Origin: Candidatus Accumulibacter aalborgensis
Lineage (GTDB): Bacteria > Pseudomonadota > Gammaproteobacteria > Burkholderiales > Rhodocyclaceae
Direction: 5' to 3'
DNA length: 53,086 nt
Assembly: GCF_900089955.1 (NCBI RefSeq)
Contig: NZ_FLQX01000096.1
Location: 1-53,086 of the forward strand
The translations under genes were made by a program, and so were the position numbers. Of this stretch, positions 4,619-53,086 are shown in pieces. Position 1 is the stretch's first letter. Every line of letters begins with the position of its first letter. The notes under the pieces were generated by a model, which saw only the letters and a list, made by a program, of their open reading frames with translations, was not told the origin of the DNA and did not search any database.

Positions 4619-4701
4619 GGCGTAAGGAACGACTCTCAAGGTAGTTTGTGGCACACCGGCCTCCTGCGGCAATCCGGGGTCGCTGGATGTCGACCGCACT
4701 G

Positions 4702-4736
4702 TATAATCCGTGCCTCCGCCGACATCAAGTGGCGGA
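4702..4736 (+). promoter_or_regulatory. Putative btuB -10 element and 5' leader hairpin
   Basis: A perfect TATAAT lies at 4702-4707, preceded by a TG, with no convincing -35 box. A TCCGCC/GGCGGA inverted repeat (4715-4720 and 4731-4736) would form at the very 5' end of the transcript, just before the riboswitch. Confidence 0.45.
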
Positions 4737-4743
4737 AGCTATC

Positions 4744-47200: not shown

Positions 47201-47499
47201 AGCGCACAGTTCAGGGCAGTCTGCCCGCCCATGGTTGGCAGCAACGCGTCGGGCCGCTCCCGGCTGATGATCTTTTCGACCACCCGCCAGGTAATCGGCT
47301 CGATGTAGGTCACATCGGCCATTTCCGGATCGGTCATGATCGTCGCCGGATTCGAGTTCACCAGGATCACCCGGTAGCCCTCTTCGCGCAGTGCCTTGCA
47401 GGCTTGCGCACCGGAGTAATCGAACTCGCACGCCTGGCCGATGACGATCGGGCCGGCACCAATAATGAGGATGCTCTTGAGGTCTGTGCGCTTAGGCAT
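44293..47499 (-). CDS. carB: Carbamoyl-phosphate synthase large subunit
   Basis: A 1068-residue subunit that makes carbamoyl phosphate for arginine and pyrimidines. It has the two ATP-grasp halves ([15 protein letters not shown] and [35 protein letters not shown] and [18 protein letters not shown]), an oligomerisation region and the C-terminal MGS-like allosteric domain (about 930-1068). Length is normal. Its start overlaps the carA stop by 8 bases. Confidence 0.97.
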
Positions 47500-48640
47500 G
47501 TGGCGCCTTCTGGTCTTGCATCATCTGGACAAAGCGATCGAACAGGTAGGCGATGTCGTGCGGCCCCGGGCTCGCTTCCGGGTGGCCCTGGAACGAAAAA
47601 GCCGGCACGTCGCGCCGGGCAACGCCCTGCAGTGAGCCGTCGAAGAGCGAAACGTGCGTCGTCAGCAGATTGTCGGGCAAGGTTTCACTGTCCACCGCAA
47701 AGCCGTGGTTCTGGCTGGTGATCAGCACCTGGCCGGTCTGCAGATCCTTGACCGGGTGGTTGGCACCGTGATGGCCGAACTTCATTTTCAGCGTCCGGGC
47801 GCCGGAGGCCAGTGCCAAGAGCTGGTGACCCAGGCAGATGCCGAAGGTCGGCACTCCTTCAGCAAGCAGTTCGCGGATGGCCCTGATGGCGTAGCCGCAA
47901 GGCTCCGGATCGCCGGGGCCGTTCGACAGAAAGACACCGTCCGGGTGCTGCGCGAGGACTTCGGCGGCGCTCGTCTGGGCCGGCACGACGGTCACCTTGC
48001 AGCCGCGCGCCGCCAACATGCGCAGAATGTGGTGTTTGATGCCGAAGTCGTAGGCCACTACATGCCACCGCGCGGCGGGCGCTGCGCGATATCCGCCGAT
48101 GGTCCATTCACCGCCGGTCCAGTCATAGGGTGCAGCGACGCTGACCACCTTGGCCAGATCCATTCCGGTGAGACCGGGGAAGGCACGCGCTTCGGCGACG
48201 GCGCGATGGTCATCGACCTCGACGGCCATCAGGCAACCCGCCTGGGCGCCTTTTTCCCGCAGGATGCGGGTGAGTTTGCGGGTATCGATGCCGGCGATGG
48301 CCACGATGCCATGCTGATGCAGATACTCGGCCAGAGTTTCCTGCCGACGCCAGCTCTCGGCACGAATCGGCAGGTCGCGAATGACCAGGCCGGCGGCATA
48401 ATTGCCGCGCGATTCGAAGTCTTCGGCATTGCAACCGACGTTGCCGATGTGCGGATAGGTGAGAGTGACGATCTGGCGGCAATACGAAGGATCGGTCAGG
48501 ATCTCCTGGTAGCCGGTCATTGCGGTATTGAAAACGACCTCCCCGCTGGTACTGCCTCCAGCGCCGATCGCTTGGCCACGGAAAATCGTGCCATCGGCCA
48601 GGGCGAGAATCGCGGGAGGAAGAGTGGGTAGCAAGGACAC
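47492..48640 (-). CDS. carA: Carbamoyl-phosphate synthase small subunit
   Basis: A 382-residue glutaminase subunit. The N-terminal domain has the family pattern [18 protein letters not shown]. The class I amidotransferase domain has the nucleophile Cys in [13 protein letters not shown] and the His-Glu pair in [13 protein letters not shown] start with an AGGAG SD. A hairpin with a T-run lies between a TATAAT box and this gene (see terminator at 48698). Confidence 0.97.
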
Positions 48641-50023: not shown

Positions 50024-50163
50024 GTCCGCAAGAACACTACTTTTGTAGGATAGACCATGCTGGTATCTGGGCATAGTATTTTTGCGACCACAAGAATCTT
50101 CAGGCCATGCCGAAATCTGCTGCCTGTTGTTCTCACCGTTCACTTGGAAAATGGGGGCCCGCC

Positions 50164-53070
50164 ATGCTTGACGTATCGGTACAGAAAGCGCTTCAGGAAG
50201 TCTTCATCCTTGCCACTGGCCGGGGTGCAAACAGTAACGAGATGGAGATGCTGGGCGGCTGGTCGGGCTCGAATGGCGACTGGGCGCCGCTGATCGACGT
50301 GGTCAACGCCTACATGACTGATCAGGCTGCTGCACACGGTACGGCCGCGACCTTCCAGACGCTGGCCCTGAACGGCCTCGGCCTGACCTTGAGCGACAGC
50401 GACGCCGCCGGGCTCGCGCCGCTGATTGATTCGGGACAAATGAAGTGGGCGGACGTTTTTGTCATCGTGATGAACTGGACCGATGAGCTCGGCCAAACGC
50501 TCGACAACCGTGCCGAAGCAGCGCATCAATTCCTGGCCGACCTGTCTACCGCAGGAAAGAGCGCCTACTTTACAGGTTCCCCCGTCAATGACGCCGTCCA
50601 CAATCTACTTCAGGGAATCAGCGACAGCGCGCAGAGTCTTGCCACCGGCGAAAAGGGTCTGGAAGCGCTGACTACCCGTCTGTCGGCAAGCGGCATCAAA
50701 ACCTCGGTTGTCGATGGGTACATCGCCGGCGCCACCGTGTTTGTCGATGCCAATGGCGATGGAAAGTTCAGCACTGGCGAGTTTTCCACCACCACCGATG
50801 CGTCCGGCAACTTCCTCCTGCCTGCGACGACTAGTGGCGGCACGCTGATCGCCAATGGCGGCGTCGACATCCTGACCGGCAAGGAATTCCATGGTGCTTT
50901 CACCGCTCCGTCGGGTTCCACCGTGGTGAATCCGCTGACGACCCTAATCGAGAACCTGGTGGCGGGCGGCGCGAGCGTCGCCGGCGCCGCCGCGTCGGTT
51001 CAGCAGGCGCTCGGTTTGCCGGTCGACATCAACCTGCTTTCCTACGACCCCATCGCTGTGCTCGCCGACGCCAACGCCACTACGCAGGACAAGGCAGCCG
51101 CGCTGCTCGTCGAGCGGGCCGCGCTGAAGGTGGCCAACATCATCGCCATCGCCGGCAGCGCGATTAACGCCAGCAGCGCCAACATCGACCTGCTGGCCGC
51201 CACCGGCGCCGTCACCCAGGCGCTTGCCGCTGCGATGACGGGCGGGAAGGCAATCGATCTGGCTGACCATGCACTGCTCACCGACCGGATTCAGGTGGCC
51301 ATTGCCACCGCTGGCGCCAGTAGCCTGATTGACCAGGCGAGCGACATCGCCAGCCTCATCGCCGGCAGCAACCACGCGGCCGAGGGGGCCGCCGACATCC
51401 GGACTCTGGCGCAAAGCGCCGTGATCGCGCAAGGAAACGCACTGGACGCGCTGGTGCAGGCGATCGAAGGTGGCCAGGGCCTGGCGGGCGTGCTCGCCAG
51501 TTTCACCGGCAAGGCGCTGACCGACGCCATCCACACAGCGGAAGTGGGCGAAATCGTTCACGGACAGCAGGTCCCTGGACCGGGACCTGATCCAGTGCCC
51601 GAGCCAGGACCGGGACCTGATCCCGTGCCCGAGCCAGGACCGGGACCTGATCCCGTGCCCGAGCCGGGACCGGGACCTGATCCGGTGCCCGAGCCGGGAC
51701 CTGTGCCTGATCCGGCGCCGACGCTTACAGGGTCCCATCCATCGGACAACGGAACGATGGAGTTCGATCAGGGCCTGTCGCTGGGGTTCTCCGAGAGTAT
51801 CTACGCCGGCACCGGAACCCTCCGGCTGTACCAGGCGAACGGCAGCCTCGTGGAAAGCTTCGATGTCGCTACCGGAATGGGAGGGGCGGGCGGGACGGTC
51901 GCCTTCTGGAACTTCCCTGGGAAAGGCGGGAACATCTATGTGAATCCCGGCGCCGACTTGCTGCCAGGAACCGACTACTACCTTCAGATCGACCCGACTG
52001 CGCTGAAGGACAGTACCGACCACAGCTATGCCGGCATTAGTGACAATACGACCCTGAACTTCAAGGCGGTCGACTCGGTACCAACGCTCTCCGGGTCCGA
52101 CCCGTCAGACAACGGGACCATGGAGTTCGATCGGAACCTGTCGCTGTGGTTCTCCGAGAACATCCACGCGGGTACCGGCACCCTCCGGCTGTACCAAGCC
52201 GACGGCACCCCGGTAGAAAGCTTCGATGTCGCTACCGGTTTGGGAGGGGCAGGCGGTTCGCTCAGCTTCAACGGCTCGTCGGTCGATATTAACCCCAAGG
52301 GCGACCTGCTGCCGGGAACCGACTACTACCTTCAGATCGACCCGACTGCGCTGAAGGACAGTACCGACCACAGCTATGCCGGCATCAGTGACAATACGAC
52401 CCTGAACTTCAAGGCGGTCGACTCGGTGCCAACGCTCTCCTGGTCCGACCCGTCAGACAACGGGACCCTGGAGTTCAATCGGGACATCGGCCTGCATTTC
52501 TCAGAGAACATCCACGCCGGCACCGGCACCATCCGGCTGTACCAGGCGGACGGCACAGTGGTAGAAAGCTTCGATGTCGCGACCGGAATTGGAGGTGCAG
52601 GCGGCTCGGTCATGTTCCAAGGCTTGAGCGTCGCTGTTAATCCCCAAGCCGACCTGCTGCCGGGAACCGACTACTACCTTCAGATCGACCCGACTGCGCT
52701 GAAGGATAGTACCGACCACAGCTATGCCGGCATTAGCGACAATACGACCCTGAACTTCAAGGCTGTCGACTCGGTACCAACGCTCAACGGGTCCAACCCG
52801 TCAGACAACGGGACCATGGAGGTCGATCAGAGCCTGTCATTGTACTTCTCCGAGAACATCCACGCCGGCACCGGCACCATCCGGCTGTACCAGGCCGACG
52901 GGACCGTGGTGGAAAGCTTCAACGTCGCGACCGGAGTGGGGGAGGCAGGCGGTTCGCTCAGCTTCAACGGCAGTAGCGTACTCCTCAACCCCAAAGCCGA
53001 CCTGCTGCCAGGAACCGACTACTACTGCGTATTTCACGCCATCGTGACCGGTGATTTCACCAAAGCGTGA
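50164..53070 (+). CDS. Large repeat-containing, probably exported surface protein, cut by an insertion sequence
   Basis: 968 residues as read, with no classical signal peptide. Residues 1-180 are helical and recall DUF4214-type N-termini. Residues 184-255 look like a carboxypeptidase-regulatory or SdrD-like beta domain with a calcium-type loop DANGDGKFSTGE (195-206). A helical Ala-rich region follows to about 470, then a Pro-Gly-Asp-Glu linker (471-519). Four Ig-like SbsA/Big_5-type units occupy 520-954. The last unit stops after LLPGTDYY, and 14 foreign residues (CVFHAIVTGDFTKA) follow, encoded by the element end at 53026. The original C-terminus, where a type I secretion signal would lie, is lost. 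Function is probably adhesion or surface structure. Confidence 0.82.
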   Translation: MLDVSVQKALQEVFILATGRGANSNEMEMLGGWSGSNGDWAPLIDVVNAYMTDQAAAHGTAATFQTLALNGLGLTLSDSDAAGLAPLIDSGQMKWADVFVIVMNWTDELGQTLDNRAEAAHQFLADLSTAGKSAYFTGSPVNDAVHNLLQGISDSAQSLATGEKGLEALTTRLSASGIKTSVVDGYIAGATVFVDANGDGKFSTGEFSTTTDASGNFLLPATTSGGTLIANGGVDILTGKEFHGAFTAPSGSTVVNPLTTLIENLVAGGASVAGAAASVQQALGLPVDINLLSYDPIAVLADANATTQDKAAALLVERAALKVANIIAIAGSAINASSANIDLLAATGAVTQALAAAMTGGKAIDLADHALLTDRIQVAIATAGASSLIDQASDIASLIAGSNHAAEGAADIRTLAQSAVIAQGNALDALVQAIEGGQGLAGVLASFTGKALTDAIHTAEVGEIVHGQQVPGPGPDPVPEPGPGPDPVPEPGPGPDPVPEPGPGPDPVPEPGPVPDPAPTLTGSHPSDNGTMEFDQGLSLGFSESIYAGTGTLRLYQANGSLVESFDVATGMGGAGGTVAFWNFPGKGGNIYVNPGADLLPGTDYYLQIDPTALKDSTDHSYAGISDNTTLNFKAVDSVPTLSGSDPSDNGTMEFDRNLSLWFSENIHAGTGTLRLYQADGTPVESFDVATGLGGAGGSLSFNGSSVDINPKGDLLPGTDYYLQIDPTALKDSTDHSYAGISDNTTLNFKAVDSVPTLSWSDPSDNGTLEFNRDIGLHFSENIHAGTGTIRLYQADGTVVESFDVATGIGGAGGSVMFQGLSVAVNPQADLLPGTDYYLQIDPTALKDSTDHSYAGISDNTTLNFKAVDSVPTLNGSNPSDNGTMEVDQSLSLYFSENIHAGTGTIRLYQADGTVVESFNVATGVGEAGGSLSFNGSSVLLNPKADLLPGTDYYCVFHAIVTGDFTKA
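51574..51720 (+). repeat. 30-bp minisatellite coding for a Pro-Gly linker
   Basis: Four full copies of a 30-bp unit (51574-51693) and a partial fifth, differing at few bases. The unit encodes PGPGPDPVPE in phase, so changes in copy number keep the frame. Confidence 0.9.
51721..53025 (+). repeat. Tandem Ig-like domain repeats (four units)
   Basis: Units start at 51721 (363 bp), 52084 (348 bp), 52432 (348 bp) and 52780 (246 bp, cut). They share long near-identical stretches, such as TDYYLQIDPTALKDSTDH and YAGISDNTTLNFKAVDSV in full units. Each starts with PTL.G..PSDNGT and has FSENIHAGTGT. Unit 1 has a 5-codon insert before the VNPGADLL segment. Confidence 0.93.
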
Positions 53071-53086
53071 CCGGCGTTTCACGAGA
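53026..53086 (+). mobile_element. Terminus of an insertion sequence, IS21-like
   Basis: From TGCGTATTTCACG on, the sequence stops matching the Ig repeat at a sharp point and consists of tandem, imperfect units built of CGTGACCGG and TTTCAC (about 53043-53086). TG at the tip and several internal repeats near the end are typical of the IS21 family. No transposase is in the window. Family assignment is inference from the end sequence alone. Confidence 0.6.

Follow-up and report, generated by a model that had tools for sequence, protein, structure and literature searches.

In published assays, IS21 insertions were delimited by 5-bp direct repeats, and the element ends hold multiple direct repeats with a marked terminal CA (PMC10122671). 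The window analyzed here, a stretch of 53,086 nucleotides that constitutes all of contig C96 in the genome of Candidatus Accumulibacter aalborgensis (4.71 Mb in 181 contigs), ends in the tip of an element with the same traits: TG...CA ends, multiple direct repeats at both ends, and 5-bp duplications (ACTAC and GATGG). Like the family at large, the element also carries istA followed by istB, both with matches to family models over cut-off, and its duplications measure 5 to 6 bp. We consider it about 95% probable that a multicopy IS21-family element of ~3.25 kb inserted in the fourth of twelve Big_5 units of an immunoglobulin-like (Ig) repeat gene, splitting it into parts of 973 and 960 codons. 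This is an ordinary, well-resolved insertion by an element of known type. Among the matches listed (20 of 591 plasmid records), the nearest named elements were IS408, IS1474, and ISBmu3, at 66 to 67% DNA identity over 65% of the element core, and no plasmid record had one place covering 80% of that core. The element differs from these three in having a third gene (85 codons) and a noncoding stretch that holds a repeat common in the genus. Judged by title and the start of the abstract, none of the papers listed concerned insertion sequences or transposases of Accumulibacter, and by the same measure none of those listed was evidently devoted to such an extra gene in IS21 elements.

The left part of the interrupted gene occupies positions 50107 to 53025 on the forward strand (973 codons, with a second possible ATG at 50164) and is recognized by its open frame, its Big_5 matches, and its continuation on contig C1. 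The 524 residues before the Ig units, counted from the second ATG, gave no Pfam match over cut-off. Proline-rich PGPGPDPVPE linker repeats (51573 to 51717, approximate limits set by eye) lie upstream of unit 1 (51718 to 52080, delimited by eye at the PTL motif), unit 2 (52081 to 52428), and unit 3 (52429 to 52776), the latter two also delimited by eye. Unit 4 (52777 to 53025) is cut by the insertion, and its tail starts at base 63 of C1. With Big_5 (PF13205) matches to four stretches of the window and to eight of C1, the gene has twelve Ig units and in this respect is like known Big_5 Ig-repeat proteins, but it differs from them in coming without a close intact homologue: none that was uninterrupted appeared in searches of 60 relatives. 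Ig units at 32 to 42% identity were present in 4 of these 60, in stop-free frames of 1,076 to 1,333 amino acids (E up to 1e-10), and two more unit matches (38 to 39%) lie elsewhere in the same genome, on C14 and C54. The N-terminal part gave local matches (34 to 41%) in 3 of the 60 relatives; in a scan of the genome_contigs set, 107 stretches matched a pattern and none was confirmed as a relative.

Unit 4 resembles the neighboring units up to position 53025, where it reads ...GGAACCGACTACTAC and ends in ...GACTACTAC; the window then continues as TGCGTATTTCACGCCATCGTGACCGGTGATTTCACCAAAGCGTGACCGGCGTTTCACGAGA, opening exactly at 53026 with TGCGTATTTCACG. A sequence-only reading had placed a change at this base of the fourth unit, and the comparison bears this out precisely, as the other 11 units (three in the window, eight on C1) continue at the equivalent place with CTTCAG, GTTCAG, CTCCAA, or CTTGAG, the tip sequence being found in none of them. 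With up to 3 mismatches allowed, the window has a single occurrence of the first 24 bases of the tip, against an expected mean of 0.00 in 100 shuffles. The left tip (53026 to 53086, forward strand) represents 61 of ~3,250 bp and is cut by the contig end; a complete homologue is found in G009, a single-contig genome of the same genus. The short repeats previously noticed in the tip are real, comprising two full copies (53032 to 53050, TTTCACGCCATCGTGACCG, and 53055 to 53073, TTTCACCAAAGCGTGACCG) and the start of a third (53077 to 53086, TTTCACGAGA), which is cut by the contig end here and complete in the G009 copy. These repeats, also on the forward strand, have the form TTTCAC...CGTGACCG.

Contig C1 starts with 62 element bases followed by ACTACCTTCAGATCGACCCG..., which is the tail of unit 4, then by eight more units and a stop at C1:2950. 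The five bases ACTAC are the last before the element on C96 (53021 to 53025) and the first after it on C1 (63 to 67), so the target duplication that the earlier reading had proposed to look for on the far side is shared by the two flanks. In addition, the frames of the two contigs are in phase, with 973 whole codons at 50107 to 53025 and 960 codons from C1:68. The earlier proposal that the element had removed the rest of the protein must therefore be dropped: the missing part can be named, as C1:68-2950, behind the other element end, and the Ig-repeat gene is split by the insertion rather than lost from the genome. The accompanying idea that a secretion signal went with it cannot be shown, because only Big_5 was recognized at the C1 end and the 524 N-terminal residues are without a Pfam match over cut-off. 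The C1 part ends directly after the last Ig unit, its final 151 residues show only Big_5, and no separate secretion domain was recognized in the remainder on C1. No contig spans the insertion site. We infer that the chromosome runs from C96 through the element into C1 and that the split gene no longer functions. The gene on C96 merits annotation as split by an insertion, and the same element has also hit a FIST-domain gene and a cas1 gene in this genome.

When the last 61 bases were searched against their own genome, as the sequence-only reading had proposed, three more contig ends were retrieved at 98 to 100% identity: the end of C79 (100%), 1 base from the end of C113 (100%), and 5 bases from the start of C35 (98%), with no further place at E up to 0.001. 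The suspicion that the contig stopped at a multicopy element was thus correct, since the tip is common to four contig ends; left ends of the element occur at four sites, which is why the assembly broke at 53086. Each contig tip covers 61 to 66 bases of the element; C101, C151, and C126 have their first 63 bases in common. These lengths point to an assembler word length near 63, in which case the 61-base length of the tip would be technical and not biological. Of the opposite tip (62 bases), one copy stands at the start of C1, one lies 1 base from the end of C97, one, with 57 of the 62 bases, terminates C126, and one lies inside C35 at 4677 to 4738. A 13-base pattern covering both tips had eight matches in the genome, one of which (C94) showed no other resemblance, and none when read in reverse. 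The FIST-domain gene is split between C113 (L011, 4679 to 5106) and C97 (L028, 4845 to 5579), with the duplication GATGG. For the insertions on C79 and in cas1 on C35, no partner was found, the right tip being present only in C1, C97, C126, and, alone, C35. On C35, the element interrupts the cas1 gene (L012, 22 to 1254; Cas_Cas1, 203 bits) close to the 3' end of that gene, and the copy on C79 (L006, 816 to 1502) adjoins a gene that by eye resembles a PIN-type toxin-antitoxin gene. The lone right end on C35 (L012, 4652 to 4738), which has neither core nor left end, is likely a relic.

The core of the element was assembled separately as C126, which in 3,088 bases contains istA (514 amino acids), istB (253 amino acids, starting 17 bp past the istA stop), a third frame, and the right tip minus its last 5 bases. 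IstA matches the IS21 transposase model NF033546 (275 bits versus a cut-off of 160) and Mu-transpos_C_2 (82 bits versus 27); the general rve model, at 29 bits, is below its cut-off of 32.6. IstB matches NF038214 (257 bits versus 200) and is also over the cut-off for IstB_IS21 (PF01695). In G009, a complete element of 3,243 bp, 91% identical and with istA and istB, opens with the TGCGTATTTCACG tip and closes with CGCGAAATACGCA, and CTTGCG stands on both sides of it; at 6 bp, this duplication is one base off the 5 bp given for IS21 in PMC10122671. Left tip, istA, istB, and right tip are therefore found as one unit in G009 and are spread over C96, C126, and C1 in the genome under study. The istA and istB genes sought beyond the edge are present on C126, and the same tip opens an istA/istB element in G009; together with the model scores, the 5-bp duplications, the TG...CA ends, and the multiple repeats, this upholds the assignment of the tip to an IS21-type element. 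Comparison with G009 shows a gap of ~88 bp, unassembled here, from the longest left tip (66 bases, on C35) to the start of C126, and for this reason it is G009 that links the left tip to istA. The copy in G009 may itself be dead, because its istA appears by eye to have an in-frame stop near the start.

The insertion can be pictured as follows. An IS21-family element of ~3.25 kb would have entered unit 4 at ACTAC with a 5-bp staggered cut; by the transposition chemistry presumed for the family, the TTTCAC(G)...CGTGACCG repeats at the two ends would be the binding sites of IstA, and IstB would assist in target capture. The assembler would then have stopped 61 to 66 bases into each of the four left ends, leaving the core as C126. 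The tip, both element ends, istA/istB, the duplications at two sites in the genome, and the continuation of the gene are all observed.

Gene order was examined with carA (47492 to 48640, reverse strand) as the synteny anchor in the window and dapB on C1 as its counterpart. The genus search covered 27 relatives, and both genes were identified in 25 of them, carA at E up to 1e-100 and dapB at E up to 1e-60. Fifteen of these 25 have the pair on the same strand of a single contig, separated by 0.2 to 2.9 kb and in the order implied here; nine have them on different contigs, and in the single-contig G009 the distance between them is ~491 kb. This order supports the link between C96 and C1 without proving it. 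The genome under study has LuxR, Ig-repeat, and TPR-GNAT genes between dapB and carA. Since none of these three had a match in 18 carA/dapB loci from 13 relatives, this genome alone, among those examined, has them at this place. The gap between dapB and carA has variable gene content, being ~0.2 kb in some relatives and ~2.8 kb in six (L080 to L085). An Ig gene in these wide gaps was considered and rejected, as the six that were opened hold other frames: 848 to 871 amino acids in three, 670 to 686 in two, and 447 plus 216 in one. By eye, we take these frames to be kinase-like (histidine kinase), with a conserved FLANMSHEIRTPMNGIIGM motif where it was shown.

Several other explanations of the break were weighed against an insertion. 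Misjoins are common at contig ends, where this change lies, and no contig bridges the site; the 61 bases could accordingly be an assembly chimera in which an element end was fused to a repeat gene that is intact in the organism. C1, however, presents the opposite element end and then the same gene, with matching phase and a matching 5-bp duplication that a misjoin is not expected to create, and the pattern is repeated at the C113/C97 site, all of which makes a chimera very improbable. A gene end with a diverged last repeat, that is, normal variation of the gene, might be suggested by the frame, which stays open for 14 codons past the break before a stop at 53068 to 53070 (element-read extension, 53026 to 53070, forward strand), so that the truncated product would have 987 amino acids. 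The same 61 bases nevertheless end three other contigs, in the FIST gene, in the cas1 gene, and beside the PIN-type-like gene, and we regard the chance of such variation as negligible.

It is also conceivable that C96 and C1 record two different insertions, or a site rearranged by recombination between element copies or by loss of Ig units between insertions. Most Ig units share the GACTACTAC target, so that the C1 flank could stem from another unit, and the distance between dapB and carA in G009 would fit a rearrangement. Against this, no left tip besides that on C96 and no right tip besides that on C1 was found in the gene, the duplications next to these two tips match, and carA and dapB flank the site as they do in 15 of 25 relatives. 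Two insertions or a rearranged site thus appear improbable, and a single insertion into unit 4 is preferred.

To a specialist, the locus holds no surprise, except perhaps the third gene of the element. It lies on the minus strand of C126 (L027, 495 to 749) and encodes 136 amino acids from the first ATG or 85 codons from a later one, the latter start having been picked to fit the G009 copy. No match was obtained in Pfam (up to E = 1) or NCBIfam (up to 0.001). Its relatives amount to 25 matches in 13 of 61 genomes (own genome included), all within the genus. Seventeen of the 25 loci have istA or istB nearby (two of these loci are pieces of one broken copy, and one depends on a 35-residue istB match); at the other eight (two of them pieces of one copy), neither was found, usually within 1.5 kb on each side. 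Leaving aside G009 and the 35-residue match, the IstB proteins of elements with the third gene are 27 to 55% identical to ours. In each of three other groups, the copies cease to match ~155 to 250 bases past the third gene, which places the gene inside the mobile unit there as well. The third gene, for which there is no family model, is thus contained in four diverged lineages of IS21 in the genus. Among plasmids, relatives occur in four records; in two of the three that were opened they adjoin an IS66 transposase, and the third is 2,653 bases long with no annotated transposase. Tentatively, and on sequence comparison, this conserved gene, which also adjoins IS66 in Burkholderia and Cupriavidus plasmids, might encode a small DNA-binding protein, pass between IS21 lineages of Accumulibacter that have diverged, and act as a shared accessory or regulator of transposition, although we think this rather doubtful. 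Near the right end of the element, at ~166 to 340 of L027 (C126), a stretch of ~175 bp is found again, at about 78 to 88% identity, in many genomes of the genus; it is partly self-complementary and resembles a small interspersed repeat that sits within the element.
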